Below, piece after piece: positions 32,390 through 59,878 of a stretch of DNA of 64,000 bases. The first letter of the stretch is position 1. Every line of letters starts with the position of its first letter. This DNA is from Heliocidaris erythrogramma (taxonomy: Eukaryota; Echinodermata; Echinoidea; Camarodonta; Echinometridae): the NCBI GenBank assembly GCA_025617745.1, contig CM046867.1, positions 24,420,705 through 24,484,704 on the forward strand, read 5' to 3'. Below the pieces are notes generated by a model. It ran no database searches. It worked only from the letters and a program-made list of their open reading frames with translations, and was not told the origin of the DNA. The position numbers and the translations under genes are program-made.

Positions 32390-34550
32390 GTCACGGCGTG
32401 AACTTCACCGAGATTCAGCGGGCCATGTCTGGGACTGGCAACCTTCAAGAAATAGTCCATGGGCCAGAAACCGAAAAGGTCCCCCCCCCCCCCTTAGGCA
32501 CAATTTTAAATGATGTTTTTCTGTTAGCTAGAACCCTCAGCTCTCAGAATCTGCTTGTTTGCCATAAAGTTGGTGGTGGGTGTGGCCACCAGGGCCGTTA
32601 CCATGGTAACGGATCAAGAAAAATATGAATTTTAGGAAAAGTCATATAATTCACTTCACAAATCTAAAAATACTTGGTAAGCATCCTAATATATGTATTT
32701 TAAGGTGCCCAATCGATTGCAACAATAATCAGAGCCATTTAAAGTCATGGGCGTGTCCAAAAATGGCCGTTACTATGGAAACGGTACCATAAAAAGCGGG
32801 TATTTTTGACAACTTTCTAAATTTATAAATATGAAATAGCCAAAAAGGTGTATGCACAAGCCTAAAGTATGTTTTTCTATTAGCTAGGACCCTCAGCTAT
32901 CATAATCTGCCTATTTCATGTACAGTTGGTGGTAGGTGTGGCCTGTAGGACCGTTACTATGGTAACACATGAAAAATACTGGATTCTTAGAAAATACTGA
33001 ATCTTTGTAATTTAATAGCTATAAAATATTTGGTAAGTATCCTATTATGTGTATTTCAAGCTACCTGATAGAGATTGCAATCACAATCTGAGCCATTTAA
33101 AGTCATGGGCGTGCCAAAAAAGGCCGTTGCTATGGAAACGGTCCAACAAAAAGCTGTTATTTGTGAAAAAAATCTATCAATAACCATTAAAAAATAGAAA
33201 GAAAAAGTGTCTGCACAGTCTTTGATAATGTTTTTATATTAGTTATGACCCTCAGCTATCATAATTTGCTTGTTTGACATCAAGGTGGTGGTGGGCGTGG
33301 CCGCTAGGGCCGTTACCATGGTAACACATATCGAAATACTGAAATTTAGAAAATACCGTATATTGGTCATTTAGCAGCATAAAATATATGGTAAGGCCTC
33401 TAATATATGTATTTCAAGCTTCCCCACTGATTCCAACCACAATCTGAGTCATTTGAGGTCATGGGCGTGTAAAAAAGGGCCGTTGCTATGGAAACGCTCC
33501 CACAAAATGCTGATATTTGTGGAAAGTATCTATGATTTATCAATACAAAATAGAAAACAACTGTCTGCACAATCTCAAATAATGTTTTTCTGTTTATAGC
33601 TAGGACCTTCAGCCCTCATATTCTCCCTATTTTACATAAAGTTGGTAGTGGACGTGACCACTAGGGTTGTTACCATGGTAAAACACCAAGTAATTGAATT
33701 TTAGAAAATACTATATATCTGTAATTCAACATCACAAAAACTAATTGTACCCATATAAATATATGTATTTTTGGGTGCCCGTTTGATTGCAAGTAGAATC
33801 AGAGTCATTGCAAGTCACCGTCATGTCAAAACATGGCTGTTGCTATGGAAACAGTATGATAAAAATTGAAAATTTCAACACAAGACAAAGAAAAAGTGTA
33901 CGTACGGCCTAAAATGGTGTTTATCTGTCAGCTATCATAATCGAAAGCTTCCTAGTAGCCACAAAGTTGGTTGTGGGTGAGACTGTCAAGGTAGCTACCA
34001 TGGTAAGGCACCAAACAAACAAGAGTTTTAGAATAATAGATAATAATAAGTGTATCTTACTTACCCAGGATAACCACATCAGTAATATTACTGCCCTGCA
34101 ACTATCATTGCCTTGTACACATTTCATACATCTGGGTCAAGCAAAACAAATGTGGGCAAAACATCTTGCCCAGGGATGTAAGCACCGATCAAGGATCGAA
34201 TCCAAGAGCTCTCGTATGAGAGTGAAAGGCTTTCACCAATATACCACAGTGCTTCCACCATGTATTTGGAATGTAACAAAGTACATTGTAGGCATCTAAT
34301 TATATACAATTGAAGCTGCGCCTTTAATTGCAATCAAAAGCCGGATTAGTTTAGGCCAGTCATATAAAAATATGCCGTTGCTAAAGGAAAAGAATGATAA
34401 GAAAGCTCATATTGATTTTTAAGAAAGGGATATTTATGTATCTAAATAATGAATTATAAACAAGTGCAACTGTCCTATTGGTTCAAATCCAGATCAAGGC
34501 CTCGTCAATCAAGATCATGCCTGGTAGGACACTTGCTATGACAAACGAAG
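32390..34550. repeat. X-box satellite: ~357-bp tandem repeat with RFX-like palindromes
   Basis: Two alternating half-units of about 172 and 185 bp each centre on a palindrome like the RFX X-box. Type A (GTTACCATGGTAAC or close) is at 32597, 32953, 33312, 33669 and, decayed, near 33993. Type B (GTTGCTATGGAAAC or close) is at 32769, 33126, 33482, 33839 and, decayed, near 34376. Flanking words recur too: GTCATGGGCGTG before type B, GTGGGCGTGGCC before type A, and CTCAGCTATCATAATCTGC. Repeats decay towards the right. Further pieces lie at 57215-57422, 60197-60860 and about 62900-63200. Confidence 0.85.
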
Positions 34551-34597: not shown

Positions 34598-34880
34598 AGG
34601 GATACGCCACCGGGCGGCCGTGGGGAAAGTCAGGATTGCGTAAGCCCCATTCACCCGTACACAAAGTTTGTGCGTCGAACGCGTCCGTTGGACTAAGTGG
34701 GATTACATTTCAACTGCACGAAGCAGACCGAATCTTGCACGAGAGCTCGAGCTCAGGCGGAGCGTGCATGTTCCAGTCTATCCGAGGTTTGCGCCCCGAG
34801 GGGCAACGGCATGATCCGGTAACGATCACGGTGCCCTCTCGCGGCATTAAAACGTCCACAATCTGCGGTTGAGTATCCCT
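34598..34880. mobile_element. GC-rich MITE with AGGGATAC ends at TTAA, 283 bp
   Basis: AGGGATAC and GTATCCCT are inverted ends, flanked by TTAA at 34594-34597 and 34881-34884. The body is much richer in GC than the satellite around it. No transposase. A TTAA target suggests piggyBac or Kolobok mobilisation. Confidence 0.7.
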
Positions 34881-35228
34881 TTAAAATATTGGCATTTCAG
34901 AAAGTGGCATTGTTTTAGTTTAACATTATTTTAAAACAATATAACAGTATAGACATGCTAGATATCTCCATTGCAAGCAGCCTGAATGATTGCATTGAAA
35001 ATGTTAATCATTTATTCCCAATGATCATATCCAAATATGGTCGCTGATAAGGCAGATTTTGATCGAGAAATCTATATTTAGAAAATAGTGGCATATTTCT
35101 GTGATTTCACAACACGAAAGATAATGTCATAAATAAATTTATTCAATTTGTCTCCAACGGCCCACAAGGGGGTGACACACGCTACTGCTGTGTGATAGGT
35201 TGCCCGGGTGCTGTGAAAAAAATCACAG

Positions 35229-35306
35229 GCGGAACCGGGTGGGATTCGAACCCGCGACCTCTGGATTACTCGACCAGTGTCATAACCACTAGACCACCGG
35301 AGTGCC
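35229..35306 (-). tRNA. Inverted tRNA-Thr-like unit at the array's left end
   Basis: On the minus strand it reads as the other units, but the loop is CGAGTAA (universal T33 replaced by G) and the T-stem has one change (CCCAC). It is the only unit in this orientation. It forms the loop of a palindrome whose arms are 35128-35228 and 35309-35411. Confidence 0.55.
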
Positions 35307-35491
35307 TCTGATTTTTTTCACAGCACCCGGGCAACCTATCACACAGCAGTAGCGTGTGTCACCCCCTTGTGGGCCGTTGGAGACAAATTGAATAAATTTA
35401 TTTATGACATTATATCACCCGACGGATTAATTCAATACCTTTGACTTGATAGTCCCCATATTGGGATAGTTTGAACCTGATCACTCAGGGC

Positions 35492-35564
35492 ACTCCGGTG
35501 GTCTAGTGGTTATGACACTGGTCTAGTAATCCAGAGGTCGCGGGTTCGAATCCCGCCCGGTTCC
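35492..35564 (+). tRNA. tRNA-Thr(AGT)-like unit, representative of 50 direct copies
   Basis: The 73-nt body has standard spacing: acceptor ACTCCGG; D-arm GTC...GAC; anticodon arm CTGGT-CTAGTAA-TCCAG with anticodon AGT; 5-nt variable loop; T-arm GCGGG-TTCGAAT-CCCGC; acceptor CCGGTTC; discriminator C. The A box TGGTCTAGTGG and B box GGTTCGAATCC match consensus. The three outer acceptor pairs (A-C, C-T, T-T) and the last anticodon-stem pair (T-T) do not form, so it is not a normal tRNA. A T7 run 8 nt downstream would end an RNA polymerase III transcript of about 85-90 nt. Across the array 28 direct units read AGT and 22 read GGT. Confidence 0.6.
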
Positions 35565-35752
35565 GCCTGTGATTTTTTTCACAGCACCCGGGCAACCTAT
35601 CACACAGCAGTAGCGTGTGTCACCCCCTTGTGGGCCGTTGGAGACAAATTGAATAAATTTATTTATGACATTATATCACCCGACGGATTAATTCAATACC
35701 TTTGACTTGATAGTCCCCATATTGGGATAGTTTGAACCTGATCACTCAGGGC

Positions 35753-35825
35753 ACTCCGGTGGTCTAGTGGTTATGACACTGGTCTGGTAATCCAGAGGTC
35801 GCGGGTTCGAATCCCGCCCGGTTCC
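35753..35825 (+). tRNA. tRNA-Thr(GGT)-like unit, representative
   Basis: Identical layout to the AGT unit, but the anticodon loop is CTGGTAA, anticodon GGT, also a threonine anticodon. Three units (37322, 40717, 45756) have the loop TTGGTAA. The same acceptor mismatches are present. Confidence 0.55.
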
Positions 35826-38800
35826 GCCTGTGATTTTTTTCACAGCACCCGGGCAACCTATCACACAGCAGTAGCGTGTGTCACCCCCTTGTGGGCCGTT
35901 GGAGACAAATTGAATAAATTTATTTATGACATTATATCACCCGACGGATTAATTCAATACCTTTGACTTGATAGTCCCCATATTAGGATAGTTTGAACCT
36001 GATCACTCAGGGCACTCCGGTGGTCTAGTGGTTATGACACTGGTCTGGTAATCCAGAGGTCGCGGGTTCGAATCCCGCCCGGTTCCGCCTGTGATTTTTT
36101 TCACAGCACCCGGGCAACCTATCACACAGCAGTAGCGTGTGTCACCCCCTTGTGGGCCGTTGGAGACAAATTGAATAAATTTATTTATGACATTATATCA
36201 CCCGACGGATTAATTCAATACCTTTGACTTGATAGTCCCCATATTGGGATAGTTTGAACCTGATCACTCAGGGCACTCCGGTGGTCTAGTGGTTATGACA
36301 CTGGTCTGGTAATCCAGAGGTCGCGGGTTCGAATCCCGCCCGGTTCCGCCTGTGATTTTTTTCACAGCACCCGGGCAACCTATCACACAGCAGTAGCGTG
36401 TGTCACCCCCTTGTGGGCCGTTGGAGACAAATTGAATAAATTTATTCATGACATTATATCACCCGACGGATTAATTCAATACCTTTGACTTGATAGTCCC
36501 CATATTGGGATAGTTTGAACCTGATCACTCAGGGCACACTCCGGTGGTCTAGTGGTTATGACACTGGTCTGGTAATCCAGAGGTCGCGGGTTCGAATCCC
36601 GCCCGGTTCCGCCTGTGATTTTTTTTCACAGCACCCGGGCAACCTATCACACAGCAGTAGCGTGTGTCACCCCCTTGTGGGCCGTTGGAGACAAATTGAA
36701 TAAATTTATTTATGACATTATATCACCCGACGGATTAATTTCAATACCTTTGACTTGATAGTCCCCATATTGGGATAGTTTGAACCTGATCACTCAGGGC
36801 ACTCCGGTGGTCTAGTGGTTATGACACTGGTCTAGTAATCCAGAGATCGCGGGTTCGAATCCCGCCCGGTTCCGCCTGTGATTTTTTTCACAGCACCCGG
36901 GCAACCTATCACACAGCAGTAGCGTGTGTCACCCCCTTGTGGGCCGTTGGAGACAAATTGAATAAATTTATTTATGACATTATATCACCCGACGGATTAA
37001 TTCAATACCTTTGACTTGATAGTCCCCATATTGGGATAGTTTGAACCTGATCACTCAGGGCACTCCGGTGGTCTAGTGGTTATGACACTGGTCTGGTAAT
37101 CCAGAGGTCGCGGGTTCGAATCCCGCCCGGTTCCGCCTGTGATTTTTTTCACAGCACCCGGGCAACCTATCACACAGCAGTAGCGTGTGTCACCCCCTTG
37201 TGGGCCGTTGGAGACAAATTGAATAAATTTATTTATGACATTATATCACCCGACGGATTAATTCAATACCTTTGACTTGATAGTCCCCATATTGAGATAA
37301 TTTGAACCTGATCACTCAGGGCACTCCGGTGGTCTAGTGGTTATGACACTGGTTTGGTAATCCAGAGGTCGCGGGTTCGAATCCCGCCCGGTTCCGCCTG
37401 TGATTTTTTTCACAGCACCCGGGCAACCTATCACACAGCAGTAGCGTGTGTCACCCCCTTGTGGGCCGTTGGAGACAAATTGAATACATTTATTTATGAC
37501 ATTATATCACCCGACGGATTAATTCAATACCTTTGACTTGATAGTCCCCATATTGGGATAGTTTGAACATGATCACTCAGGGCACTCCGGTGGTCTAGTG
37601 GTTATGACACTGGTCTAGTAATCCAGAGGTCGCTGGTTCGAATCCCGCCCGGTTCCGCCTGTGATTTTTTTCACAGCACCCGGGCAACCTATCACACAGC
37701 AGTAGCGTGTGTCACCCCCTTGTGGGCCGTTGGAGACAAATTGAATAAATTTATTCATGACATTATATCACCCGACGGATTAATTCAATACCTTTGACTT
37801 GATAGTCCCCATATTGGGATAGTTTGAACCTGATCACTCAGGGCACTCCGGTGGTCTAGTGGTTATGACACTGGTCTGGTAATCCAGAGGTCGCGGGTTC
37901 GAATCCCGCCCGGTTCCGCCTGTGATTTTTTTCACAGCACCCGGGCAACCTATCACACAGCAGTAGCGTGTGTCACCCCCTTGTGGGCCGTTGGAGACAA
38001 ATTGAATAAATTTATTTATGACATTATATCACCCGACGGATTAATTCAATACCTTTGACTTGACAGTCCCCATATTGGGATAGTTTGAACCTGATCACTC
38101 AGGGCACTCCGGTGGTCTAGTGGTTATGACACTGGTCTAGTAATCCAGAGGTCGCGGGTTCGAATCCCGCCCGGTTCCGCCTGTGATTTTTTTCACAGCA
38201 CCCGGGCAACCTATCACACAGCAGTAGCGTGTGTCACCCCCTTGTGGGCCGTTGGAGACAAATTGAATTAATTTATTTATGACATTATATCACCCGACGG
38301 ATTAATTTCAATACCTTTGACTTGATAGTCCCCATATTGGGATAGTTTGAACCTGATCACTCAGGGCACTCCGGTGGTCTAGTGGTTATGACACTGGTCT
38401 AGTAATCCAGAGGTCGCGGGTTCGAATCCCGCCCGGTTCCGCCTGTGATTTTTTTCACAGCACCCGGGCAACCTATCACACAGCAGTAGCGTGTGTCACC
38501 CCCTTGTGGGCCGTTGGAGACAAATTGAATAAATTTATTTATGACATTATATCACCCGACGGATTAATTCAATACCTTTGACTTGATAGTCCCCATATTG
38601 GGATAGTTTGAACCTGATCACTCAGGGCACTCCGGTGGTCTAGTGGTTATGACACTGGTCTGGTAATCCAGAGGTCGCGGGTTCGAATCCCGCCCGGTTC
38701 CGCCTGTGATTTTGTTCACAGCACCCGGGCAACCTATCACACAGCAGTAGCGTGTGTCACCCCCTTGTGGGCCGTTGGAGACAAATTGAATAAATTTATT

Positions 38801-41800
38801 TATGACATTATATCACCCGACGGATTAATTCAATACCTTTGACTTGATAGTCCCCATATTGGGATAGTTTGAACCTGATCACTCAGGGCACTCCGGTGGT
38901 CTAGTGGTTATGACACTGGTCTGGTAATCCAGAGGTCGCGGGTTCGAATCCCGCCCGGTTCCGCCTGTGATTTTTTTCACAGCACCCGGGCAACCTATCA
39001 CACAGCAGTAGCGTGTGTCACCCCCTTGTGGGCCGTTGGAGACAAATTGAATAAATTTATTTATGACATTATATCACCCGACGGATTAATTCAATACCTT
39101 TGACTTGATAGTCCCCATATTGGGATAGTTTGAACCTGATCACTCAGGGCACTCCGGTGGTCTAGTGGTTATGACACTGGTCTGGTAATCCAGAGGTCGC
39201 GGGTTCGAATCCCGCCCGGTTCCGCCTGTGATTTTTTTCACAGCACCCGGGCAACCTATCACACAGCAGTAGCGTGTGTCACCCCCTTGTGGGCCGTTGG
39301 AGACAAATTGAATAAATTTATTTATGACATTATATCACCCGACGGATTAATTCAATACCTTTGACTTGATAGTCCCCATATTGGGATAGTTTGAACATGA
39401 TCACTCAGGGCACTCCGGTGGTCTAGTGGTTATGACACTGGTCTGGTAATCCAGAGGTCGCGGGTTCGAATCCCGCCCGGTTCCGCCTGTGATTTTTTTC
39501 ACAGCACCCGGGCAACCTATCACACAGCAGTAGCGTGTGTCACCCCCTTGTGGGCCGTTGGAGACAAATTGAATAAATTTATTCATGACATTATATCACC
39601 CGACGGATTAATTCAATACCTTTGACTTGATAGTCCCCATATTGGGATAGTTTGAACCTGATCACTCAGGGCACTCCGGTGGTCTAGTGGTTATGACACT
39701 GGTCTGGTAATCCAGAGGTCGCGGGTTCGAATCCCGCCCGGTTCCGCCTGTGATTTTTTTTCACAGCACCCGGGCAACCTATCACACAGCAGTAGCGTGT
39801 GTCACCCCCTTGTGGGCCGTTGGAGACAAATTGAATAAATTTATTCATGACATTATATCACCCGACGGATTAATTCAATACCTTTGACTTGATAGTCCCC
39901 ATATTGGGATAGTTTGAACCTGATCACTCAGGGCACTCCGGTGGTCTAGTGGTTATGACACTGGTCTAGTAATCCAGAGGTCGCGGGTTCGAATCCCGCC
40001 CGGTTCCGCCTGTGATTTTTTTCACAGCACCCGGGCAACCTATCACACAGCAGTAGCGTGTGTCACCCCCTTGTGGGCCGTTGGAGACAAATTGAATAAA
40101 TTTATTTATGACATTATATCACCCGACGGATTAATTTCAATACCTTGACTTGATAGTCCCCATATTGGGATAGTTTGAACCTGATCACTCAGGGCACTCC
40201 GGTGGTCTAGTGGTTATGACACTGGTCTAGTAATCCAGAGGTCGCGGGTTCGAATCCCGCCCGGTTCCGCCTGTGATTTTTTTCACAGCACCCGGGCAAC
40301 CTATCACACAGCACTAGCGTGTGTCACCCCCTTGTGGGCCGTTGGAGACAAATTGAATAAATTTATTTATGACATTATATCACCCGACGGATTAATTCAA
40401 TACCTTTGACTTGATAGTCCCCATATTGGGATAGTTTGAACCTGATCACTCAGGGCACTCCGGTGGTCTAGTGGTTATGACACTGGTCTGGTAATCCAGA
40501 GGTCGCGGGTTCGAATCCCGCCCGGTTCCGCCTGTGATTTTTTTCACAGCACCCGGGCAACCTATCACACAGCAGTAGCGTGTGTCACCCCCTTGTGGGC
40601 CGTTGGAGACAAATTGAATAAATTTATTTATGACATTATATCACCCGACGGATTAATTCAATACCTTTGACTTGATAGTCCCCATATTGGGATAATTTGA
40701 ACCTGATCACTCAGGGCACTCCGGTGGTCTAGTGGTTATGACACTGGTTTGGTAATCCAGAGGTCGCGGGTTCGAATCCCGCCCGGTTCCGCCTGTGATT
40801 TTTTTCACAGCACCCGGGCAACCTATCACACAGCAGTAGCGTGTGTCACCCCCTTGTGGGCCGTTGGAGACAAATTGAATACATTTATTTATGACATTAT
40901 ATCACCCGACGGATTAATTCAATACCTTTGACTTGATAGTCCCCATATTGGGATAGTTTGAACATGATCACTCAGGGCACTCCGGTGGTCTAGTGGTTAT
41001 GACACTGGTCTAGTAATCCAGAGGTCGCGGGTTCGAATCCCGCCCGGTTCCGCCTGTGATTTTTTTCACAGCACCCGGGCAACCTATCACACAGCAGTAG
41101 CGTGTGTCACCCCCTTGTGGGCCGTTGGAGACAAATTGAATAAATTTATTCATGACATTATATCACCCGACGGATTAATTCAATACCTTTGACTTGATAG
41201 TCCCCATATTGGGATAGTTTGAACCTGATCACTCAGGGCACTCCGGTGGTCTAGTGGTTATGACACTGGTCTGGTAATCCAGAGGTCGCGGGTTCGAATC
41301 CCGCCCGGTTCCGCCTGTGATTTTTTTCACAGCACCCGGGCAACCTATCACACAGCAGTAGCGTGTGTCACCCCCTTGTGGGCCGTTGGAGACAAATTGA
41401 ATAAATTTATTTATGACATTATATCACCCGACGGATTAATTCAATACCTTTGACTTGATAGTCCCCATATTGGGATAGTTTGAACCTGATCACTCAGGGC
41501 ACTCCGGTGGTCTAGTGGTTATGACACTGGTCTAGTAATCCAGAGGTCGCGGGTTCGAATCCCGCCCGGTTCCGCCTGTGATTTTTTTTCACAGCACCCG
41601 GGCAACCTATCACACAGCAGTAGCGTGTGTCACCCCCTTGTGGGCCGTTGGAGACAAATTGAATAAATTTATTTATGACATTATATCACCCGACGGATTA
41701 ATTTCAATACCTTTGACTTGATAGTCCCCATATGGGGATAGTTTGAACCTGATCACTCAGGGCACTCCGGTGGTCTAGTGGTTATGACACTGGTCTAGTA

Positions 41801-43099
41801 ATCCAGAGGTCGCGGGTTCGAATCCCGCCCGGTTCCGCCTGTGATTTTTTTCACAGCACCCGGGCAACCTATCACACAGCAGTAGCGTGTGTCACCCCCT
41901 TGTGGGCCGTTGGAGACAAATTGAATAAATTTATTCATGACATTATATCACCCGACGGATTAATTCAATACCTTTGACTTGATAGTCCCCATATGGGGAT
42001 AGTTTGAACCTGATCACTCAGGGCACTCCGGTGGTCTAGTGGTTATGACACTGGTCTGGTAATCCAGAGGTCGCGGGTTCGAATCCCGCCCGGTTCCGCC
42101 TGTGATTTTTTTCACAGCACCCGGGCAACCTATCACACAGCAGTAGCGTGTGTCACCCCCTTGTGGGCCGTTGGAGACAAATTGAATAAATTTATTCATG
42201 ACATTATATCACCCGACGGATTAATTCAATACCTTTGACTTGATAGTCCCCATATTGGGATAGTTTGAACCTGATCACTCAGGGCACTCCGGTGGTCTAG
42301 TGGTTATGACACTGGTCTAGTAATCCAGAGGTCGCGGGTTCGAATCCCGCCCGGTTCCGCCTGTGATTTTTTTCACAGCACCCGGGCAACCTATCACACA
42401 GCAGTAGCGTGTGTCACCCCCTTGTGGGCCGTTGGGGCTTTTGCTAAACAGTCGGGTAACGTCGCGTCGCGTTGGTAGAAATTTTCGAACATTTTTCAGG
42501 AAGGTGTCTTCAAGGGGACAAATTGAAAAAGAGTCCATCTCAGTATGATTTTCCCGTTTTCAGGCTAAAAACGACAAACAAGGGAATAAAGAAAAACAAT
42601 AGGATAATGCAAAGAAAAACATGAACTATAAAGCGAGAATAGAAGGGTAGGAAGGATGGAAGAAAATATGATGAAAGGAAACAAAGAATACAACAAAAGG
42701 AAAGTTGGAAAGTAAAAATAAGTGGAAAAAACAAAGAATAACATAAAGAAAGATAGAGACATAAATGATAGAAGGATAAAGATATTAAGAGTAACATAAG
42801 GAAAGATAGAAGAGAAGATGATAATTTGAATAAAGGAATAACATAACGAAAGAAAAGATGAAAGGAAAACAAAATGATAGCCTTAAAGCAAAGAATGTTT
42901 TAAGGAAAGTAAGTAAAGATGGGAAGCAGAAAATGATTTTAAAAAGAATAATATGAAAGATAGAGAGAGAAATGATAGGATAAAAAAAAGTTTAACTTAT
43001 ATAAAGAAAGACAGAGAGAGAAATGATAGAAGGATAAAGATTAATGTGAGGAAGGTGGGGGGGGGGAGAAAATGATAACTGGAAACAAAGAATATCATA

Positions 43100-43893
43100 T
43101 AGGATACGCCATTTTGTTTCAAAGAAAATATTAACAATGTTATATAATGCTTTTATTCTGCCTCACATTATTTATGGATTAGAAGTTTGGGGAGCTGCAA
43201 ACAAAACATTTTTAAATCCTTTATTGATCCTTCAAAAACGAATTGTACGAATGATATCTTTCAAAGGTTTATGGCACCACACAGCTCAGTTATTCATTAA
43301 TTTACAGATTCTAGATATATTTAAACAATATAGATATGTAATCGGAATGCTTATATTTGATCTCATAAATGATCGACTGCCTCATAAATTTTCAGATTAT
43401 TTTTCATTTATCAATCATTCTTATCAAACACGATGTAGGGAAAATTGTAACCTCAAAGTAATAAAAATTAGAATAAATGTGGGGAAACAATCTATTTCAT
43501 ATTCAGGCCCTATTACTTGGAATCAGCTGCTAACAGGTTTAAGAAGTATAAATTCCAGAAGATCATTTAGTAGACAATTAAAAAAGATAATCCTCTGTCA
43601 ATGAATTTCAACTATATATGAATAACAAAAAAGTAATTAGTATTAATGCTTTTTCATGTAAATATTGTAAATTGTAAATATATGTATCAATTGTAAATTG
43701 TAAATATGTTTGAATGTAAAATGAGTAATATGTATAATAGTGATAATGGGCTAACCTCGATTAGCATTATGCTATTTTGTTAGCTCATTTTACCATAGTA
43801 TTTCGATCTGTATTTATGCACTGTATATTCGTTGTATTCTTGTATTCTTGGTAATAAATAAATATTCTAATTCTATTCTAATTCTAATATTCT
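43100..43893 (+). mobile_element. 5'-truncated LINE inserted in the foldback element
   Basis: The right arm preserves the empty site (GAATATCATAACGAGAGG read on the other strand), so the insert runs from about 43100 to 43893. It contains the end of ORF2 and a 3' UTR ending in an (ATTCTA)n-type tail (about 43862-43893). At most a very short target duplication is visible. Confidence 0.75.
43137..43604 (+). pseudogene. LINE ORF2 C-terminal fragment
   Basis: The 155-codon frame (coding begins a few codons earlier, RKILT) reads MLYNAFILPHIIYGLEVWGA, the usual sequence just past the RT palm in LINE ORF2. GPITWNQL and a basic end follow. Upstream RT and endonuclease are lost by 5' truncation. Composition resembles the LINE half at 30929-32330, so both may be one family. 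Confidence 0.75.
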
Positions 43894-45114
43894 AATAACG
43901 AGAGGAAGGATGGAAAGATAATTGATAGAAGGATAAAAGCAAGAAATGACAAAGCGAGAGATAGAGAGAAAAATTATAAAAAGATAAATATAAACATGAA
44001 GAGAGGTGGAAGAGAAGATGATAAAAGGGAACAAAGAACAACAAAGTGAAGATGGAAAGCAATAAAAAAGAGGATAAAAAGAATAAATATAAACAGTAAC
44101 ATTATGAAAGATGGAAAACAAAATGATAAAAGCAATAAAAGAATAACGTAATGAAAGGAAAGGTGGAAAGAAAAAATTAATAAAAGGATTAAAAACAACT
44201 GAATTAGTAATTACGCGATGCGTAATATATGTCCCCGCCAGAAGTGTAGATCTGTGGAATGGCAGTTAATTTATGTAATTTCTGATAGAACCTTGAAGAT
44301 AAATGTGAGAAATGAATTATCAAATTAATGTTTTATGATTATAAATGCATTTTCTGTTGATTTTGAATAAATTACAATAAATTTGCATAATTAATGAATT
44401 TCAAAATTCTTTGTTCCCTTTTATCCTTCTATCAAGTATCTTTCCATCCTTCCTCTCGTTATGATATTCTTTGTTTCCTGTTATCATTTTCTCCCCCACC
44501 TTCCTCACGTTAATCTTTATCCTTCTATCATTTCTCTCTCTGTCTTTCTTTATATAAGTTAAACTTTTTTTATCCTATCATTTCTCTCTCTGTCTTTCAT
44601 ATTATTCTTTTTAAAATCATTTTCTGCTTCCCATCTTTACTTACTTTCCTTAAAACATTCTTTGCTTTTATCCTATCATTTTGCTTTCCTTTCATCTTTT
44701 CTTTCGTTATGTTATTCCTTTATTCAAATTATCATCTTCTCTTCTATCTTTCCTTATGTTACTCTTAATATCTTTATCCTTCTATCATTTATGTCTCTAT
44801 CTTTCTTTATGTTATTGTTTTTATCCACTTTTTACTTTCCAACTTTCCTTTTGTTGTATTCTTTGTTTCCTTTCATCATATTTTCTTCCATCCTTCCTAC
44901 CCTTCTATTCTCTCTTTATAGTTCATGTTTTTCTTTGCATTATCCTTCTATTGTTTTCTTTATTCCCTTGTTTGTCGTTTTTAGCCTGAAAACGGGAAAA
45001 ATCATACTGAGATGGACTCTTTTTCAATTTGTCCCCTTGAAGACACCTTCCTGAAAAATGTTCGAAAATTTCTACCAACGCGACGCGACGTTACCCGACT
45101 GTTTAGCAAAAGCC

Positions 45115-48100
45115 GCCGTTGGAGACAAATTGAATAAATTTATTTATGACATTATATCACCCGACGGATTAATTTCAATACCTTTGACTTGATAGTCCCC
45201 ATATTGGGATAGTTTGAACCTGATCACTCAGGGCACTCCGGTGGTCTAGTGGTTATGACACTGGTCTAGTAATCCAGAGATCGCGGGTTCGAATCCCGCC
45301 CGGTTCCGCCTGTGATTTTTTTCACAGCACCCGGGCAACCTATCACACAGCAGTAGCGTGTGTCACCCCCTTGTGGGCCGTTGGAGACAAATTGAATAAA
45401 TTTATTTATGACATTATATCACCCGACGGATTAATTCAATACCTTTGACTTGATAGTCCCCATATTGGGATAGTTTGAACCTGATCACTCAGGGCACTCC
45501 GGTGGTCTAGTGGTTATGACACTGGTCTGGTAATCCAGAGGTCGCGGGTTCGAATCCCGCCCGGTTCCGCCTGTGATTTTTTTCACAGCACCCGGGCAAC
45601 CTATCACACAGCAGTAGCGTGTGTCACCCCCTTGTGGGCCGTTGGAGACAAATTGAATAAATTTATTTATGACATTATATCACCCGACGGATTAATTCAA
45701 TACCTTTGACTTGATAGTCCCCATATTGAGATAATTTGAACCTGATCACTCAGGGCACTCCGGTGGTCTAGTGGTTATGACACTGGTTTGGTAATCCAGA
45801 GGTCGCGGGTTCGAATCCCGCCCGGTTCCGCCTGTGATTTTTTTCACAGCACCCGGGCAACCTATCACACAGCAGTAGCGTGTGTCACCCCCTTGTGGGC
45901 CGTTGGAGACAAATTGAATACATTTATTTATGACATTATATCACCCGACGGATTAATTCAATACCTTTGACTTGATAGTCCCCATATTGGGATAGTTTGA
46001 ACCTGATCACTCAGGGCACTCCGGTGGTCTAGTGGTTATGACACTGGTCTAGTAATCCAGAGGTCGCGGGTTCGAATCCCGCCCGGTTCCGCCTGTGATT
46101 TTTTTCACAGCACCCGGGCAACCTATCACACAGCAGTAGCGTGTGTCACCCCCTTGTGGGCCGTTGGAGACAAATTGAATAAATTTATTCATGACATTAT
46201 ATCACCCGACGGATTAATTCAATACCTTTGACTTGATAGTCCCCATATTGGGATAGTTTGAACCTGATCACTCAGGGCACTCCGGTGGTCTAGTGGTTAT
46301 GACACTGGTCTGGTAATCCAGAGGTCGCGGGTTCGAATCCCGCCCGGTTCCGCCTGTGATTTTTTTCACAGCACCCGGGCAACCTATCACACAGCAGTAG
46401 CGTGTGTCACCCCCTTGTGGGCCGTTGGAGACAAATTGAATAAATTTATTTATGACATTATATCACCCGACGGATTAATTCAATACCTTTGACTTGACAG
46501 TCCCCATATTGGGATAGTTTGAACCTGATCACTCAGGGCACTCCGGTGGTCTAGTGGTTATGACACTGGTCTAGTAATCCAGAGGTCGCGGGTTCGAATC
46601 CCGCCCGGTTCCGCCTGTGATTTTTTTTCACAGCACCCGGGCAACCTATCACACAGCAGTAGCGTGTGTCACCCCCTTGTGGGCCGTTGGAGACAAATTG
46701 AATAAATTTATTTATGACATTATATCACCCGACGGATTAATTCAATACCTTTGACTTGATAGTCCCCATATTGGGATAGTTTGAACCTGATCACTCAGGG
46801 CACTCCGGTGGTCTAGTGGTTATGACACTGGTCTAGTAATCCAGAGGTCGCGGGTTCGAATCCCGCCCGGTTCCGCCTGTGATTTTTTTCACAGCACCCG
46901 GGCAACCTATCACACAGCAGTAGCGTGTGTCACCCCCTTGTGGGCCGTTGGAGACAAATTGAATAAATTTATTTATGACATTATATCACCCGACGGATTA
47001 ATTTCAATACCTTTGACTTGATAGTCCCCATATGGGGATAGTTTGAACCTGATCACTCAGGGCACTCCGGTGGTCTAGTGGTTATGACACTGGTCTAGTA
47101 ATCCAGAGGTCGCGGGTTCGAATCCCGCCCGGTTCCGCCTGTGATTTTTTTCACAGCACCCGGGCAACCTATCACACAGCAGTAGCGTGTGTCACCCCCT
47201 TGTGGGCCGTTGGAGACAAATTGAATAAATTTATTCATGACATTATATCACCCGACGGATTAATTCAATACCTTTGACTTGATAGTCCCCATATGGGGAT
47301 AATTTGAACCTGATCACTCAGGGCACTCCGGTGGTCTAGTGGTTATGACACTGGTCTAGTAATCCAGAGGTCGCGGGTTCGAATCCCGCCCGGTTCCGCC
47401 TGTGATTTTTTTCACAGCACCCGGGCAACCTATCACACAGCAGTAGCGTGTGTCACCCCCTTGTGGGCCGTTGGAGACAAATTGAATAAATTTATTTATG
47501 ACATTATATCACCCGACGGATTAATTCAATACCTTTGACTTGATAGTCCCCATATTGGGATAGTTTGAACCTGATCACTCAGGGCACTCCGGTGGTCTAG
47601 TGGTTATGACACTGCTCTAGTAATCCAGAGGTCGCGGGTTCGAATCCCGCCCGGTTCCGCCTGTGATTTTTTTCACAGCACCCGGGCAACCTATCACACA
47701 GCAGTAGCGTGTGTCACCCCCTTGTGGGCCGTTGGAGACAAATTGAATAAATTTATTCATGACATTATATCACCCGACGGATTAATTCAATACCTTTGAC
47801 TTGATAGTCCCCATATTGGGATAGTTTGAACCTGATCACTCAGGGCACTCCGGTGGTCTAGTGGTTATGACACTGGTCTAGTAATCCAGAGGTCGCGGGT
47901 TCGAATCCCGCCCGGTTCCGCCTGTGATTTTTTTCACAGCACCCGGGCAACCTATCACACAGCAGTAGCGTGTGTCACCCCCTTGTGGGCCGTTGGAGAC
48001 AAATTGAATAAATTTATTTATGACATTATATCACCCGACGGATTAATTCAATACCTTTGACTTGATAGTCCCCATATTGGGATAGTTTGAACCTGATCAC

Positions 48101-51100
48101 TCAGGGCACTCCGGTGGTCTAGTGGTTATGACACTGGTCTGGTAATCCAGAGGTCGCGGGTTCGAATCCCGCCCGGTTCCGCCTGTGATTTTTTTCACAG
48201 CACCCGGGCAACCTATCACACAACAGTAGCGTGTGTCACCCCCTTGTGGGCCGTTGGAGACAAATTGAATAAATTTATTCATGACATTATATCACCCGAC
48301 GGATTAATTCAATACCTTTGACTTGATAGTCCCCATATTGGGATAGTTTGAACCTGATCACTCAGGGCACTCCGGTGGTCTAGTGGTTATGACACTGGTC
48401 TGGTAATCCAGAGGTCGCGGGTTCGAATCCCGCCCGGTTCCGCCTGTGATTTTTTTTCACAGCACCCGGGCAACCTATCACACAGCAGTAGCGCGTGTCA
48501 CCCCCTTGTGGGCCGTTGGAGACAAATTGAATAAATTTATTCATGACATTATATCACCCGACGGATTAATTCAATACCTTTGACTTGATAGTCCCCATAT
48601 TGGGATAGTTTGAACCTGATCACTCAGGGCACTCCGGTGGTCTAGTGGTTATGACACTGGTCTAGTAATCCAGAGGTCGCGGGTTCGAATCCCGCCCGGT
48701 TCCGCCTGTGATTTTTTTTCACAGCACCCGGGCAACCTATCACACAGCAGTAGCGTGTGTCACCCCCTTGTGGGCCGTTGGAGACAAATTGAATAAATTT
48801 ATTTATGACATTATATCACCCGACGGATTAATTCAATACCTTTGACTTGATAGTCCCCATATTGGGATAGTTTGAACCTGATCACTCAGGGCACTCCGGT
48901 GGTCTAGTGGTTATGACACTGGTCTGGTAATCCAGAGGTCGCGGGTTCGAATCCCGCCCGGTTCCGCCTGTGATTTTTTTCACAGCACCCGGGCAACCTA
49001 TCACACAGCAGTAGCGTGTGTCACCCCCTTGTGGGCCGTTGGAGACAAATTGAATAAATTTATTTATGACATTATATCACCCGACGGATTAATTCAATAC
49101 CTTTGACTTGATAGTCCCCATATTGGGATAGTTTGAACCTGATCACTCAGGGCACTCCGGTGGTCTAGTGGTTATGACACTGGTCTAGTAATCCAGAGGT
49201 CGCGGGTTCGAATCCCGCCCGGTTCCGCCTGTGATTTTTTTCACAGCACCCGGGCAACCTATCACACAGCAGTAGCGTGTGTCACCCCCTTGTGGGCCGT
49301 TGGAGACAAATTGAATAAATTTATTTATGACATTATATCACCCGACGGATTAATTTCAATACCTTTGACTTGATAGTCCCCATATTGGGATAGTTTGAAC
49401 CTGATCATTCAGGGCACTCCGGTGGTCTAGTGGTTATGACACTGGTCTAGTAATCCAGAGGTCGCGGGTTCGAATCCCGCCCGGTTCCGCCTGTGATTTT
49501 TTTCACAGCACCCGGGCAACCTATCACACAGCAGTAGCGTGTGTCACCCCCTTGTGGGCCGTTGGAGACAAATTGAATAAATTTATTCATGACATTATAT
49601 CACCCGACGGATTAATTCAATACCTTTGACTTGATAGTCCCCATATTGGGATAGTTTGAACCTGATCACTCAGGGCACTCCGGTGGTCTAGTGGTTATGA
49701 CACTGGTCTAGTAATCCAGAGGTCGCGGGTTCGAATCCCGCCCGGTTCCGCCTGTGATTTTTTTTTACAGCACCCGGGCAACCTATCACACAGCAGTAGC
49801 GTGTGTCACCCCCTTGTGGGCCGTTGGAGACAAATTGAATAAATTTATTTATGACATTATATCACCCGACGGATTAATTCAATACCTTTGACTTGATAGT
49901 CCCCATATTGGGATAGTTTGAACCTGATCACTCAGGGCACTCCGGTGGTCTAGTGGTTATGACACTGGTCTGGTAATCCAGAGGTCGCGGGTTCGAATCC
50001 CGCCCGGTTCCGCCTGTGATTTTTTTCACAGCACCCGGGCAACCTATCACACAGCAGTAGCGTGTGTCACCCCCTTGTGGGCCGTTGGAGACAAATTGAA
50101 TAAATTTATTTATGACATTATATCACCCGACGGATTAATTCAATACCTTTGACTTGATAGTCCCCATATTGGGATAGTTTGAACCTGATCACTCAGGGCA
50201 CTCCGGTGGTCTAGTGGTTATGACACTGGTCTAGTAATCCAGAGGTCGCGGGTTCGAATCCCGCCCGGTTCCGCCTGTGATTTTTTTCACAGCACCCGGG
50301 CAACCTATCACACAGCAGTAGCGTGTGTCACCCCCTTGTGGGCCGTTGGAGACAAATTGAATAAATTTATTTATGACATTATATCACCCGACGGATTAAT
50401 TTCAATACCTTTGACTTGATAGTCCCCATATTGGGATAGTTTGAACCTGATCATTCAGGGCACTCCGGTGGTCTAGTGGTTATGACACTGGTCTAGTAAT
50501 CCAGAGGTCGCGGGTTCGAATCCCGCCCGGTTCCGCCTGTGATTTTTTTCACAGCACCCGGGCAACCTATCACACAGCAGTAGCGTGTGTCACCCCCTTG
50601 TGGGCCGTTGGAGACAAATTGAATAAATTTATTCATGACATTATATCACCCGACGGATTAATTCAATACCTTTGACTTGATAGTCCCCATATTGGGATAG
50701 TTTGAACCTGATCACTCAGGGCACTCCGGTGGTCTAGTGGTTATGACACTGGTCTAGTAATCCAGAGGTCGCGGGTTCGAATCCCGCCCGGTTCCGCCTG
50801 TGATTTTTTTTTACAGCACCCGGGCAACCTATCACACAGCAGTAGCGTGTGTCACCCCCTTGTGGGCCGTTGGAGACAAATTGAATAAATTTATTTATGA
50901 CATTATATCACCCGACGGATTAATTCAATACCTTTGACTTGATAGTCCCCATATTGGGATAGTTTGAACCTGATCACTCAGGGCACTCCGGTGGTCTAGT
51001 GGTTATGACACTGGTCTAGTAATCCAGAGGTCGCGGGTTCGAATCCCGCCCGGTTCCGCCTGTGATTTTTTTCACAGCACCCGGGCAACCTATCACACAA

Positions 51101-51197
51101 CAGTAGCGTGTGTCACCCCCTTGTGGGCCGTTGGAGACAAATTGAATAAATTTATTCATGACATTATATCACCCGACGGATTAATTCAATACCTTTG
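45115..51197 (+). repeat. tRNA-Thr-like tandem array, right block: 23 direct units
   Basis: The array resumes in exact phase after the insertion: 42285 to 45234, minus 2,687 bp of element and duplication, is 262 bp, one unit. Unit positions are 45234, 45495, 45756, 46017, 46278, 46539, 46801, 47063, 47324, 47585, 47846, 48107, 48368, 48630, 48892, 49153, 49415, 49676, 49938, 50199, 50461, 50722 and 50984. The array ends mid-unit at 51197, at AATACCTTTG, and satellite-type flank follows. Confidence 0.97.
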
Positions 51198-51211
51198 ACG
51201 AAAGATAATGT

Positions 51212-51659
51212 TAGCGATGATATGTTTTTATAAAGTTAATTTCTGACTGTACTGCTAACTGTAATTAAAGGTCGCCGGTTTCAATGGGGAAAAATCTGTG
51301 TTTTCTGATGCTGCAAAATAGTTCTTGCGCATACGAAACTAGGTCTAGTTTAAAGTATATTGAGGATCAGCGAAATGTCTTTCTCCTGGGCAAAAATCCG
51401 CATAGATCGCTGTGATATGTTTAAGTTGTACTGAATAGCGAACGAATACATGTTTTGCGCTATGTGTATCCTGCAATCTGCTGTCTGACGCCATACCATT
51501 ATAGAACAAAGCAATTTCATCTTTATTATGGATCATGACACTTTCAGTATTTCGGAGTTAGCGACAGATATCTCAATTCTAAACGTGGAGGGAGATTTGG
51601 AGCCGACTGCCTGTAAATGTTCAGGAAGCTAGCTGCTGCTATAGATCATTATCGCAGCC
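51212..51659. other. Flank between two insertions: satellite-derived
   Basis: GATAATGTTAGCGATGATATG resembles ATAATGTTAGTGATGAAG at 57238. The rest shows no gene. Confidence 0.4.
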
Positions 51660-51819
51660 TACCCTGATAGCAGACGGACGTCTTAAAGACGTCGTATATT
51701 GGTCGTATTCTGGTCAACTGGTCATACGTCGTATGAACGACGTTATCACGACGTCTTCGTGACGACTTTCTAAGACGAGTATGTATTGTCTTATTTGGAT
51801 GACTAGTTTATGACGTGAT

Positions 51820-54112
51820 TTTGACGTCAATTATTTACCACTTATATGATTGATTATTCAAGACCAAAAACGACGTAATTATTACGTCACTTCATTGCCA
51901 GCTCACGACCAGTTACGACTTGCATCATCCATGACCATTTCTTGACGTGATTTTGACGTCAATTATTTACCACTTATAAACGATTATTCAAGACCCCCAA
52001 AAAGACGTAATTATCAGGTCACTTCATTGCCAACTCACGACCAGTTAAGAATTGCACTATCCATGACTAGTTCATGACGTGATTTTGACGTCAATTATTT
52101 ACCACTTATTTGAACGATTATTCAAGACCAAAAGACGACGTAATTATTACGTCACTTCATTGCCAACACACGACGAATTAAGAATCGCACTATCCATTAC
52201 TATTTCATGACGTGATTTTGACGTCAATTATTTACCACTTATATGAACGATTATTCAAGACCAAAAAACGACGTAATTATTACGTGACTTCATTTCCAAC
52301 TCACGACCAGCTAAGAATGACTAGTTCATGACGTGATTTTGACGTCAGTTATTTTCCACTTATATGAACTATTCAAGACCAAAAACGACGTAATTATTAC
52401 GTCACTTCATTGCCAACTCACGACCAGCTACGAATGACTAGTTCATGACGTGATTTTGACGTCACTTATTTACCACTTATATGAACGATTATTCAAGACC
52501 AAAAGACGACGTAATTATTACACACTATCCATTACTATTTCATGACGTGGTTTTGACGTCAATTATTTACCACTTATATGAACGATTATTCAAGACCAAA
52601 AAACGACGTAATTATTACGTCACTTCATTTCCAACTCACGACCAGCTACGAATGCCTAGTTCATGACGTGATTTGGACGTCAAGTATTTACCACCTGTTT
52701 AACGATTATTCAAGACCAAAAATAGACGTTAATATTATGTGACTTCAATTCCAACTCACGATCAGCTAAGAATGACTAGTTCATGACGTGATTTTGACGT
52801 CAGTTATTTTCCACTTATATGAACAATTTAAGACCAAAAAACGACGTAATTATTACGTCACTTCATTGCAAGCTGACGATCAGCTATTTCACCATCCATG
52901 ACTAATCCCTGACGTGATGTTGACGTCAATTATTTACCACTTACGAACGATTATTCGAAACCAAAAACGACGCAGTTATCACGTCATGTCACTGCCAACC
53001 CACGACCAGTTAAGAATCGCATTATCCATTACTATTTCATGACGTGATTTTAGCGTAAATTATTTACCACTTACATGAACGATTATTCAAGACCAAAAAA
53101 CGACGTAATTATTACGTGACTTCAATTCCAACTCACGACCAGCTAAGAATGACTAGTTCATGACGTGATTTTGACGTCAATTATTTACCACACTGCAAAA
53201 ACCAGGGTGTTAATTTAACACGATCTCGGTATCTATATTGGGCTACACCATATAAGTGTTAAAACAACACCAGTTTCGAATCAAACTGGCGTTGTTTTAA
53301 CACTAACTGGTGTTGTTTTGACACTTATCTGGTGTAGACCAATATCAAACTGGTGTTGTTTTAACACTAGCTGGTGATGTTTTGACACTTATCTGGTGTA
53401 GCCCAATATGGATACCGAGATGGTGTTAAATTAACACCCTGGTTTTTGCAGTGCACTTATGAACGATTATTCAAGACCAAAAGACGACGTAATTATTACG
53501 CACTATTCATTACTATTTCATGACGTGGTTTTGACGTCAATTATTTACCACTTATATGAACGATTATTCAAGACCAAAAAACGACGTAATTATTACGTCA
53601 CTGCATTGACCACTCGCGACCAGCTACAATCATGACTAGTTAATGACGTGATTTTGACGTCAAGTATTTACCACTTATATGAAGGATTTTTCAAGACCAA
53701 AAACGACGTAATGATTACGTCACTTCATTGCCAGCTCACGACCAGTTACGACTTGCATCATCCATGACCATTTCTTGACGTGATTTTGACGTCAATTATT
53801 TACCACTTATAAACGATTATTCAAGACCCCCCAAAAGACGTAATTATCAGGTCACTTCATTGCCAACTCACGACCAGTTAAGAATTGCACTATCCATGAC
53901 TAGTTCATGACGTGATTTTGACGTCAATTATTTACCACTTATTTGAACGATTATTCAAGACCAAAAGACGACGTAATTATTACGTCACTTCATTGCCAAC
54001 ACACGACGAATTAAGAATCGCACTATCCATTACTATTTCATGACGTGATTTTGACGTCAATTATTTACCACTTATATGAACGATTATTCAAGACCAAAAA
54101 ACGACGTAATTA
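51820..54112. repeat. TGACGTCA-rich tandem repeat, 17 units
   Basis: Units of about 97-133 bp contain TGACGTGATTTTGACGTCAA, then TTATTTACCACTTATATGAA, CGATTATTCAAGACC, AACGACGTAATTATTACGTC and CTTCATTGCCAACTCACGAC. TTGACGTCAA starts at 51831, 51953, 52085, 52218, 52339, 52456, 52553, 52673, 52794, 52920, 53050 (decayed), 53171, 53531, 53654, 53776, 53918 and 54051. A stretch of about 380 bp at 51880-52260 is repeated at 53725-54105, a larger internal duplication. Confidence 0.9.
53191..53453. mobile_element. CACTGCAAAAACCAGGGTG-ended MITE, 263 bp
   Basis: The element is almost wholly palindromic, with ends CACTGCAAAAACCAGGGTGT and their inverse. The interior has repeated GTGTTAAAACAACACC and CTGGTGTTGTTTTGACAC words. 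It interrupts a unit of the TGACGTCA repeat between TTATTTACCA and CTTATGAACG. The duplication is only about 2 bp (CA). Confidence 0.85.
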
Positions 54113-58230: not shown

Positions 58231-59878
58231 CAATGTTGGTCATAATGGTAGCATAATTCGTTTTTTCATAGTCATCCGTTGATTTAATCATATTTAAAAG
58301 CCTAAATAGATAATATTGACCAGGTTCATTGATTACATAATGATTTTGTATTGTCGCGGTAAAAGTCGGTCAAGTGAAACATTCCATCACGTGGACAATC
58401 TTATTGTTTGGTGCTATGAAAGGCAGAGCCTCCTTTCTGCTATTGTTTTGCTGTCCATTTCGTGCAGAAAGCCTACGTGTGTTAACAGCCCGTTTTCAGA
58501 GTTAGCTTGATCAATTCCTATCAAATTTGGTACACTGATTCCTTACACTATGCCTCGCCCAACGGCACTTGCAATTCGTCAGAGGGTCCTTGCACTCCAA
58601 CGGAATGGACGGACACAGGCCCAGATTGCAGATATTCGTGGACTATCGAAGAGTTGTGTGTACCGCATCCTCAGAAGACATCGAAAGGCGGGTACTTTGA
58701 GTGCAGAGAGATCTACAGGTCGACCACGAAGAACATCCGCACGGGATGACCGTCAACTGCTGAACATGTGCCGTATGAACCGAGAATGCCAGCGAGTCGT
58801 CTTTGCCACTTGTGGAGGAGGCACTTCGGAGTGAACGTTTCACGGGAAACCGTAAACAGGAGACTTGCCCAACATGGCTACAGAGCTCGGCGAATGACCA
58901 AGGTTCCACGTCTCACTGCTCGCCACCGGGTTGCTCGACTCCAGTGGGCTAGGAGGCACATGAGATGGCAGCTTGGTCACTGGCGCCATGTAATCTTCAC
59001 TGATGAAAGCCTGGACATCCTTGACCGCACCGATGGGAGGCAGAGGGTTCGACGATTGCGTGGCGAGAACCTCCGTAATGACTGTGTCCAGGAAACCAAT
59101 CAAGCGGGTGGAGGCTCAGTGATGGTATGGGTCGGAATACATTATGGCGGAAAAACGCCATTGGCTGCACCTGAAGGAAACGTCAACGCCGTCGTGTACC
59201 GCGATATCCTGGAACGCCATTGTCTTCCATACGCGAGAAGAGTATATGGCAATAACTTTCAGCTCCAAGACGACAACGCTCGATCACATAGGGCACGTCT
59301 GGTGAGGGAATTCCTTGACGCAGAGACGTGCAGCAGATGCCTTGGCCTGCCTGTTCACCACATGAACCCCCACTGAGCACGCTGGGACATTGTGCCATGA
59401 GCACACGTGCAGGAGTGCCCAGGCACTGACCAAAGAGTGGGATGCACTGTTGCACCATCAGTGGACAGTATGCCACGGCGTGTGGAGGCACTGGTGCGTG
59501 CCAGAGGTGGCCATACCAGGTACTAAGTGACCCAACAAGATTAAAAAGAGGAACACTTCCCTTCAATCATAAAAAGATCCCAAGATTTTATTTTTCACGA
59601 TAAAATTATCATTGTTAAACATTTACCAAAAAAGGTACATTTTTTCAAGGAATCCAAGGTCTGGATGATTGTGTTTGTCAAAAGTGGTTTAAACCAGTGT
59701 ATAAAGTTTGTATGAATTAATTTTGTCTTATATTTTTTATTTCATATGTTGAGAACAGATTTATCAATAAAATCGGTGAAGATATAAGCTTTATTTTGCA
59801 GAAAAATGACTCGTATTGTTGTCAATAATAGTTTACGAAAGGTAGAAAAAAATTATGCTACCATTATGACCAACAGTG
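58231..59878 (+). mobile_element. Second Tc1-like transposon, decayed
   Basis: The ends CAATGTTGGTCATAATGGTA and the inverse of CACTGTTGGTCATAATGGTA begin after TA at 58229-58230. The right TA is mutated to TG. The outer 14 bp are shared with the Tc1-like element at 11443-13088, while inner TIR bases differ. Confidence 0.85.
58550..59525 (+). pseudogene. Tc1-type transposase, several frame breaks
   Basis: The ATG at 58550 opens MPRPTALAIRQRVLALQRNG, a helix-turn-helix, with an AT-hook-like GRPRR. A frame change near 58785 leads to the catalytic part (SRLCHLWRRHFGVNVS, then HVIFTDESLD with the first Asp and QDDNARSH with the second). Further frame changes after 59325 destroy the region around the final Glu. 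The end reads RGGHTRY with a stop at 59523-59525, as in the 11.7-kb copy. Dead. Confidence 0.8.

Follow-up and report, generated by a model that had tools for sequence, protein, structure and literature searches.

A tRNA-bearing tandem array in the sea urchin Heliocidaris erythrogramma as a putative retro-insertion copied from unit-length RNA

How does a tRNA-like sequence come to be repeated some fifty times, almost unchanged, at one place in a genome? This question is raised by a 64,000-nucleotide stretch of the Heliocidaris erythrogramma genome (GenBank assembly GCA_025617745.1, contig CM046867.1, forward-strand positions 24,420,705 to 24,484,704), which we call the window. The original prediction, made from the letters of the sequence, had described 51 near-identical units of about 261 bp, and this layout was confirmed. 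ARAGORN identified 51 tRNA-like bodies, each 73 nt long: 50 lie on the plus strand and 1 (35231-35303) on the minus strand. The identical 51 bodies were recovered with Rfam model RF00005 (36.8-54.5 bits; cut-off, 29), and Tandem Repeats Finder (TRF) gave a period of 261 over 35304-51199. The mean pairwise identity of the 48 complete units aligned was 98.9%, and the predicted array limits (35114-51211) turned out to be the outer edges of a 14-bp target duplication. We propose that the array is probably one insertion of a non-autonomous, tRNA-bearing echinoid retroelement, copied from a unit-length and most likely circular RNA.

Insertion anatomy and dispersal of the arrays

The target duplication of the window array is perfect and lies inside a dispersed repeat of ~300 bp. 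This target repeat is very abundant (1119 first-look candidates), the listed copies, from the best 40 scored, being 96-100% identical. All three other copies that were fetched (L046-L048) run uninterrupted across the target and represent the empty site. We compared 40 arrays, namely 37 fetched loci, two of which (L035 and L036) contribute two arrays each, and the window, with its two parts taken as one; five further loci, three of them short, were fetched later. A target site duplication (TSD) of 8-17 bp was present at 23 of the 40 arrays. By a separate criterion, a TSD of at least 10 bp was found in 19 of the 40 true flank pairs compared with 3 of 1560 mismatched flank pairs.

The two ends of the arrays differed in behavior. 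The 3' ends fell at unit positions 176-189 in 29 arrays and at 207-225 in 8, so that 37 of 40 lay in either zone (5.1 expected), and GAC is present in both zones. The 5' ends of the 26 arrays starting in direct orientation were uniform over the unit (Kolmogorov-Smirnov p=0.93). The start was inverted in 14 of the 40 arrays, and in 11 of these the outer end of the inversion fell in the same two zones. Short insertions of ~1.7 units (L082 and L084) showed the same form as the long arrays. No poly(A) tail was seen at the printed array junctions, nor was there a 3' tail of simple repeat or A of the kind found in short interspersed elements (SINEs), the 3' junctions being at internal unit positions. 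Microsatellites adjoining several insertions are read as target sequence.

TSDs, a fixed 3' end, random 5' ends and 5' inversions, the features of target-primed retro-insertion, were all found. Because the TSD, the empty site, the near-fixed 3' end, the random 5' end and the inverted 5' part occur together, we interpret the array as a single retro-insertion by target-primed reverse transcription of a plus-strand RNA with twin priming, as the mechanism giving inverted 5' parts is named. Priming was apparently internal to the unit and guided by microhomology. The array had earlier been attributed to amplification of a tRNA-like or SINE unit by unequal exchange or a rolling-circle step. The amplification of such a unit and the rolling-circle idea come close, except that the evidence puts the key step at the RNA level, in target-primed reverse transcription.

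The mitochondrial COX1 of this genome translates cleanly under the echinoderm code, and among the best 120 listed of 7999 scored the proteins nearest to it are those of echinoids (97%), followed by other echinoderms. The genome (1.06 Gb, 26 contigs) was searched with the unit, which gave at least 536 matches (best 40 of 487 candidates scored) on at least 19 contigs among the matches listed. The genome contains 580 copies of an exact 33-mer from the unit, 37 of them in the window. The first 100 of the 580 places group into 49 loci across 247 Mb; 28 of these loci have a single exact match, 21 have two or more, and 8 have matches on both strands. Extrapolated to the whole genome, the unit would be present at ~211 loci, in addition to arrays without the exact 33-mer. 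The window array is the largest among the arrays examined. The unit is therefore not limited to one satellite, as had been supposed, but is dispersed over many loci, whose different flanks speak against an assembly artefact; the length of the window array itself rests on the assembly.

Some loci depart from this simple picture. Array loci are clustered on contig C21 at ~1.25-1.57 Mb (L012, L014, L023 and L040), some of them sharing flanks, and L014 contains a repeated inverted-plus-direct block unlike the simple insertions elsewhere. L082 and L083 are the same insertion with the same flanks 338 kb apart, that is, a duplicated segment. ARAGORN calls a tRNA-Asn in L082 for a unit with 32T, 34G and a changed position 35.

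The unit and its variants

Unit statistics were obtained from 274 full units, 48 of the window and 226 of 37 other loci. The A box was intact in 269, the B box in 259, and a downstream run of at least 6 T was present in 273. As in tRNA-derived SINEs, the unit carries a tRNA-type internal promoter for RNA polymerase III (pol III). The complete cloverleaf of a functional tRNA gene was not found: only 4 of the 7 acceptor-stem pairs form in 268 of the 274 units, and the Rfam tRNA alignment covers only model positions 4-67 of 71. Both AGT and GGT occur as "anticodons" (242 and 30 units, respectively). The unit thus has a pol III-type promoter and terminator, yet its tRNA could hardly be a working one. 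A tRNA-like body is present in each unit, as originally described, and its assignment to tRNA-Thr is nominal, since the body is defective and the amino acid follows from nothing but the AGT/GGT triplet.

No known ribozyme was detected in the unit. Neither strand of a unit dimer matched any Rfam ribozyme with an E value of 10 or less, and the unit has neither a CTGANGA core nor a relaxed hammerhead pattern. Among hammerhead, twister-like and hepatitis delta virus (HDV)-like motifs, none was convincing on either strand; one weak HDV-like pattern was noted on the minus strand. Other Rfam families near the array all remained under the cut-off, and a 35-mer of the unit had no exact match in a viral collection.

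Variants were analyzed in 37 arrays with 225 units (the window and arrays with one full unit were left out, and 81+T was ignored). Twenty-eight variants were fixed in all full units of an array, compared with a mean of 0.97 and a maximum of 5 in 2000 shuffles; of the 28, 12 represent the same old insertion (223+C), and six occur in no more than a single array. Units differed by a mean of 1.69 within arrays and 3.11 between arrays. The inverted and direct parts shared a fixed variant in five of eight two-orientation arrays (for example, 209+C in L013), and the other three had none fixed in both. Thirty-one ordinary arrays held 11 fixed, 54 singleton and 9 intermediate variants, two of the last being one 3-bp insertion in L039. 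This count covered arrays with at least 3 full units and disregarded eight variants in homopolymer length, among them 223+C; the window was treated separately, as was the C21 cluster, which has 3 arrays of that size.

Homogeneity was also seen in a score-independent sample from contigs C1-C3, in which the units with A at position 34 (A34) were taken from the first 100 of the 652 listed places, reaching from C1 to C3:54.29 Mb. Among its 30 multi-unit loci, 24 were all A34, 4 were all G34 and 2 were mixed, whereas shuffling gave a mean of 9.5 mixed loci and never fewer than 3 in 5000 rounds. Two arrays, C1:67665202-67667560 (10 units) and C3:6789675-6790750 (5 units), have the A34 27-mer in each listed unit and no exact 33-mer. 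Reverse transcriptases (RTs) of the long interspersed elements (LINEs) R2 and L1 roll round circular RNA to a varying degree in vitro, and on such a template the template errors recur in every unit of the concatemer and RT errors occur once (PMC11331410; this paper and those cited below are drawn on for the excerpts accessible). The same distribution, template variants in every unit and presumptive RT errors in one, is present here as a trend, with the window, L042, L023, L014 and two mixed loci on C2 as exceptions. Because the pattern of array variants matches that of LINE RTs on circular RNA in vitro, we favor a unit-length circular RNA as the putative template.

Position 34, the wobble position of the tRNA-like body, varied in one direction. 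Genome-wide, an exact 27-mer around this position has A in 652 copies and G in 55, and no copy has C or T. The G34 copies are spread over 22 loci including the window, which holds 20 of the 55. When substitutions were tabulated in 45 loci, only A34>G (5 loci) and C32>T (3 loci) recurred in three or more loci within the tRNA part. A34 accounts for 5 of 9 A>G locus-events over 61 A positions; with the duplicated L082/L083 counted once, it accounts for 4 of 8 (P=4.8e-6, or 2.9e-4 corrected for 61 sites). G34 occurs on several backgrounds, with and without 223+C, with 130T and with 32T. In human cells, A34 is deaminated to inosine on unprocessed precursors, including tRNA-Thr(AGT), and inosine is sequenced as G (PMC4446420, as excerpted). 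A good reading of the G34 copies is that they would be a fossil of wobble A-to-I editing of the RNA intermediate.

Two other recurrent variants were set aside. m3C32 is a tRNA modification at C32, and C32>T was considered as its trace; the excess fell short of significance (P=0.10, with 2 independent events among 35 of the C>T type), and all seven 32T units also have 34G. T180>A, the commonest "variant" (9 loci), was put down to alignments that apparently run into the target at the 3' end.

Proposed mechanism and competing explanations

In the mechanism that we propose, a unit-length plus-strand RNA, most likely a 261-nt circle, would form; nicked target DNA would pair with GAC/GACA sites of this RNA and prime internally; and the RT of a LINE or a Penelope-like element would circle the RNA many times and produce a head-to-tail concatemer. 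Priming by the second target strand as well would give the inverted head. The tRNA fold would matter at the RNA stage, where the wobble A34 would be read as G, as A-to-I editing by ADAT2/3 would give, and long arrays such as that of the window have probably been reshuffled after insertion by exchange between units. As a matter of speculation, the tRNA may serve as a handle for cleavage or ligation of the circle. A fuller version, a retrozyme-like element with a circular or multimeric RNA that does without a ribozyme, uses the tRNA fold as a handle, is edited by ADAT2/3 and has G34 written into the genome, is a tentative idea to which we give less than even belief.

Several observations weigh against this mechanism. 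The circle is deduced from DNA sequence, and neither a known ribozyme nor any other circle-making route was found in the unit. The T-run 8 nt 3' of the tRNA should stop pol III, so that an RNA of the full unit would need read-through or pol II. No RT was singled out as the partner of the element. Seventeen of the 40 arrays lack a TSD of at least 8 bp, several of them adjoining microsatellites or being rearranged, and the 40 arrays were taken from the top of the score list rather than at random. GGT by itself is not proof of editing, because A34/G34 pairs occur in some large tRNA gene sets; a single G34 source could have spread; and G34 units were part of the search query. The mosaic arrays are a further difficulty. 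In the window, G34 is present in 23 of 48 units and freely combined with 173C; in L042, 168G is present in 7 of 14 units, in both the inverted and the direct part; and L023, L014 and 2 of the 6 G-bearing multi-unit loci of C1-C3 are mosaic as well. Because a single monomer circle does not predict mosaics, they count against it, and they are better explained by linear multimeric RNA or by later unit exchange. The window mosaic fits either a multimeric template or such exchange.

A linear multimeric template is accordingly the alternative that meets the mosaics directly. A parent array would be transcribed end to end by pol II read-through, and the long RNA would be retrotransposed with twin priming by a LINE or Penelope-like RT, with no circle, so that the daughter array copies part of the parent array. 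This would fit every insertion feature equally well and would account for the mosaics (A34 and G34 interspersed in the window, 168G in both arms of L042, and C2:34062852(A)/34063249(G)), especially if the tRNAs carried on one RNA were edited independently of each other. However, most arrays are homogeneous with array-wide variants, so that their parents must already have been homogenised, and the RT would have to copy RNAs of several kb (~13 kb in the case of the window); we regard this explanation as unlikely, while giving it real weight. Template jumping, which is known for R2-type RTs, would also yield head-to-tail units in one event, the RT copying a linear 261-nt RNA and, on reaching its 5' end, jumping to the 3' end of the next molecule. 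It would leave recurrent untemplated or ragged junctions, and no unit position has them; the recurrent length changes are mostly in homopolymers, with a few scattered small indels, and the array-wide private variants would require the same RNA species each time. We therefore judge it improbable.

Still less credit is due to a satellite spread at the DNA level, by unequal exchange or re-integrated extrachromosomal circular DNA. The clustered, rearranged copies on contig C21 would suit it, as would the weak higher-order repeats of the window array (lags 21, 8 and 13), the score of which was reached in 71 of 2000 shuffles. These repeats are modest evidence for later block duplication in the window array, and unequal exchange, proposed in the original prediction, would be at most secondary. 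A DNA-level origin does not predict TSDs of 8-17 bp, near-fixed 3' ends with random 5' ends or inversions that start at the same sites, and is already disfavored by the array-end pattern and the empty site; we consider it very improbable. A true cluster of tRNA-Thr genes kept for translation is almost certainly not what the array represents. The near-constant A box, B box and T-run and the 51 matches above the Rfam cut-off would agree with it, and in some large tRNA gene sets one box is served by A34 as well as G34 genes (PMC5372738, as excerpted). By the same account, such co-occurrence within one genome is not the usual state, and the acceptor stem with 4 of 7 pairs and the dispersed, 5'-truncated retro-insertions argue against such a cluster. 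We thus retain the single retro-insertion, probably from a unit-length circular RNA, as the preferred explanation.

Stretches of the GIY-YIG (Penelope) type, which are part of the elements proposed to help retrozymes, are abundant in the genome (121 matches; best 150 of 1721 candidates scored) and would agree with an RT of this origin. Retrozymes co-exist with Penelope-like elements that have hammerheads. In 30 Penelope-type loci, unit-like sequence was limited to short, mostly tRNA-like matches. Hammerhead-like words occurred at 2 of the 30, and no Rfam hammerhead reached the cut-off in 10 of the 30 loci, those two included. The locus L064, which has a GIY-YIG match and a hammerhead-like word, also carries two tRNA-Arg(TCT) genes of equal Rfam score (2530-2601, minus strand; 2716-2787, plus strand), inverted and flanked by similar inverted sequence.

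Window features and comparison with known systems

The features of the array are listed in Table 1.

Table 1. Array features in the window
Feature	Position	Strand	Remarks
Left part of dispersed ~300-bp repeat (insertion target)	34879-35127	+	Resumes at 51212
Left copy of 14-bp TSD	35114-35127	+	Identical to 51198-51211; uninterrupted in L046-L048
Inverted 5' portion	35128-35303	-	One partial unit with tRNA-like body 35231-35303; ARAGORN, blast mapping
First block of direct 261-bp units	35304-42435	+	27 tRNA-like bodies
Example tRNA-like body	35753-35825	+	A box TGGTCTAGTGG, B box GGTTCGAATCC, acceptor 4/7 pairs
Example T-run, pol III terminator-like	35834-35840	+	8 nt 3' of tRNA body, within short hairpin
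Nested 2,679-bp element	42436-45114	.	Terminal inverted repeats; 8-bp TSD 42428-42435 / 45115-45122
Second block of direct 261-bp units	45115-51199	+	23 tRNA-like bodies; ends at unit position ~215 (..CCTTTGAC)
Right copy of 14-bp TSD	51198-51211	+	

The nested element, which splits the array, is a later insertion and separate from it. It carries a fragment that by eye resembles retrotransposon coding sequence; its ends are long and near-palindromic, and it is hAT-like by the length of its TSD only. Elsewhere in the window, TRF found several blocks of ~133-bp tandem repeats immediately to the right of the array (51799-54112) and a 356-bp tandem repeat at 32498-33852. A long tyrosine recombinase open reading frame (ORF) at 16563-18074 (minus strand), which we take to be Crypton-like, finds its best named matches (up to 69%) among sea urchin proteins, annotated KIAA1958-like. 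ORFs at 11793-12752 and 58511-59376, the second split over two frames, resemble Tc1/mariner-type transposases by eye.

tRNA-bearing tandem repeats in amphibians, SINE-derived satellites and retrozymes are already known. In the open literature searched, outside of which lie subscription papers and preprints, no element of the present description was found, which is weak evidence of novelty. Clustered eukaryotic tRNA genes are dense and homogeneous like the array (PMC2888827, excerpt), whereas the array bodies are defective and the clusters are retro-insertions. Helenus and other TRIMs (terminal-repeat retrotransposons in miniature) with tRNA-bearing long terminal repeats (LTRs) are likewise short non-autonomous retroelements with a tRNA-like sequence, and one family is tandem; they have LTRs and 4-5-bp TSDs (PMC10886601, excerpt), which are absent here, the echinoid arrays having 8-17-bp TSDs and random 5' ends.

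tRNA-derived SINEs and SINE-derived satellites share the tRNA-type pol III head, non-autonomy, target priming and the existence of tandem versions (PMC10702118, excerpt). The array unit differs from them in lacking a 3' tail of its own (simple repeat or A-rich) and in that the mobile form itself is a multimer. The amphibian repeats PolIII/TAN, OAX (Xenopus satellite I) and Rana/polIII are also tandem, each repeat with a tRNA-like sequence, with repeat lengths of ~360 nt for PolIII/TAN and ~250 nt for Rana/polIII; the accessible part of the same paper summarises them as tandem repeats or satellites and does not mention TSD insertion, twin priming or template homogeneity.

The metazoan non-LTR retrozymes (Cervera and de la Pena 2020, PMC7229834, excerpt) are tandem units of a few hundred bp, from dimers to tens (62-mers in coral), without LTRs and with TSDs longer than 4 bp; Penelope-like elements co-exist with them, and they are proposed to spread via circular RNA copied by a LINE or Penelope-like RT. 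The echinoid arrays have the same layout, a like spread is proposed for them, and stretches of the Penelope type are plentiful in their genome. Their 261-bp monomers lie within the 150-450 bp of retrozymes and form arrays of ~1.7 (L082 and L084) to 51 units, with TSDs longer than 4 bp and ends that are cut units, no other terminal repeat being seen. Retrozymes have a type I hammerhead and are thought to be closed by tRNA ligase (PMC7229834), whereas the array unit has no known ribozyme on either strand and has instead a tRNA-like body, A and B boxes and a T-run. The fixed 3' end, random 5' end and inverted head found in the echinoid arrays were not seen described for retrozymes in the accessible part of that paper.

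Satellites, SINEs and retrozymes are linked here in one measurable case of how a single event of reverse transcription can give rise to a tandem array, and of how arrays come to be scattered over many chromosomes. If the circle is real, circular-RNA retroelements can do without a self-cleaving ribozyme; if G34 reflects editing, transposon copies archive germ-line tRNA modification in DNA, which is testable by sequencing. Among the known systems, the array is a retrotransposed concatemer of a tRNA-bearing element, retrozyme-like in its working and not a retrozyme by the ribozyme that defines them.

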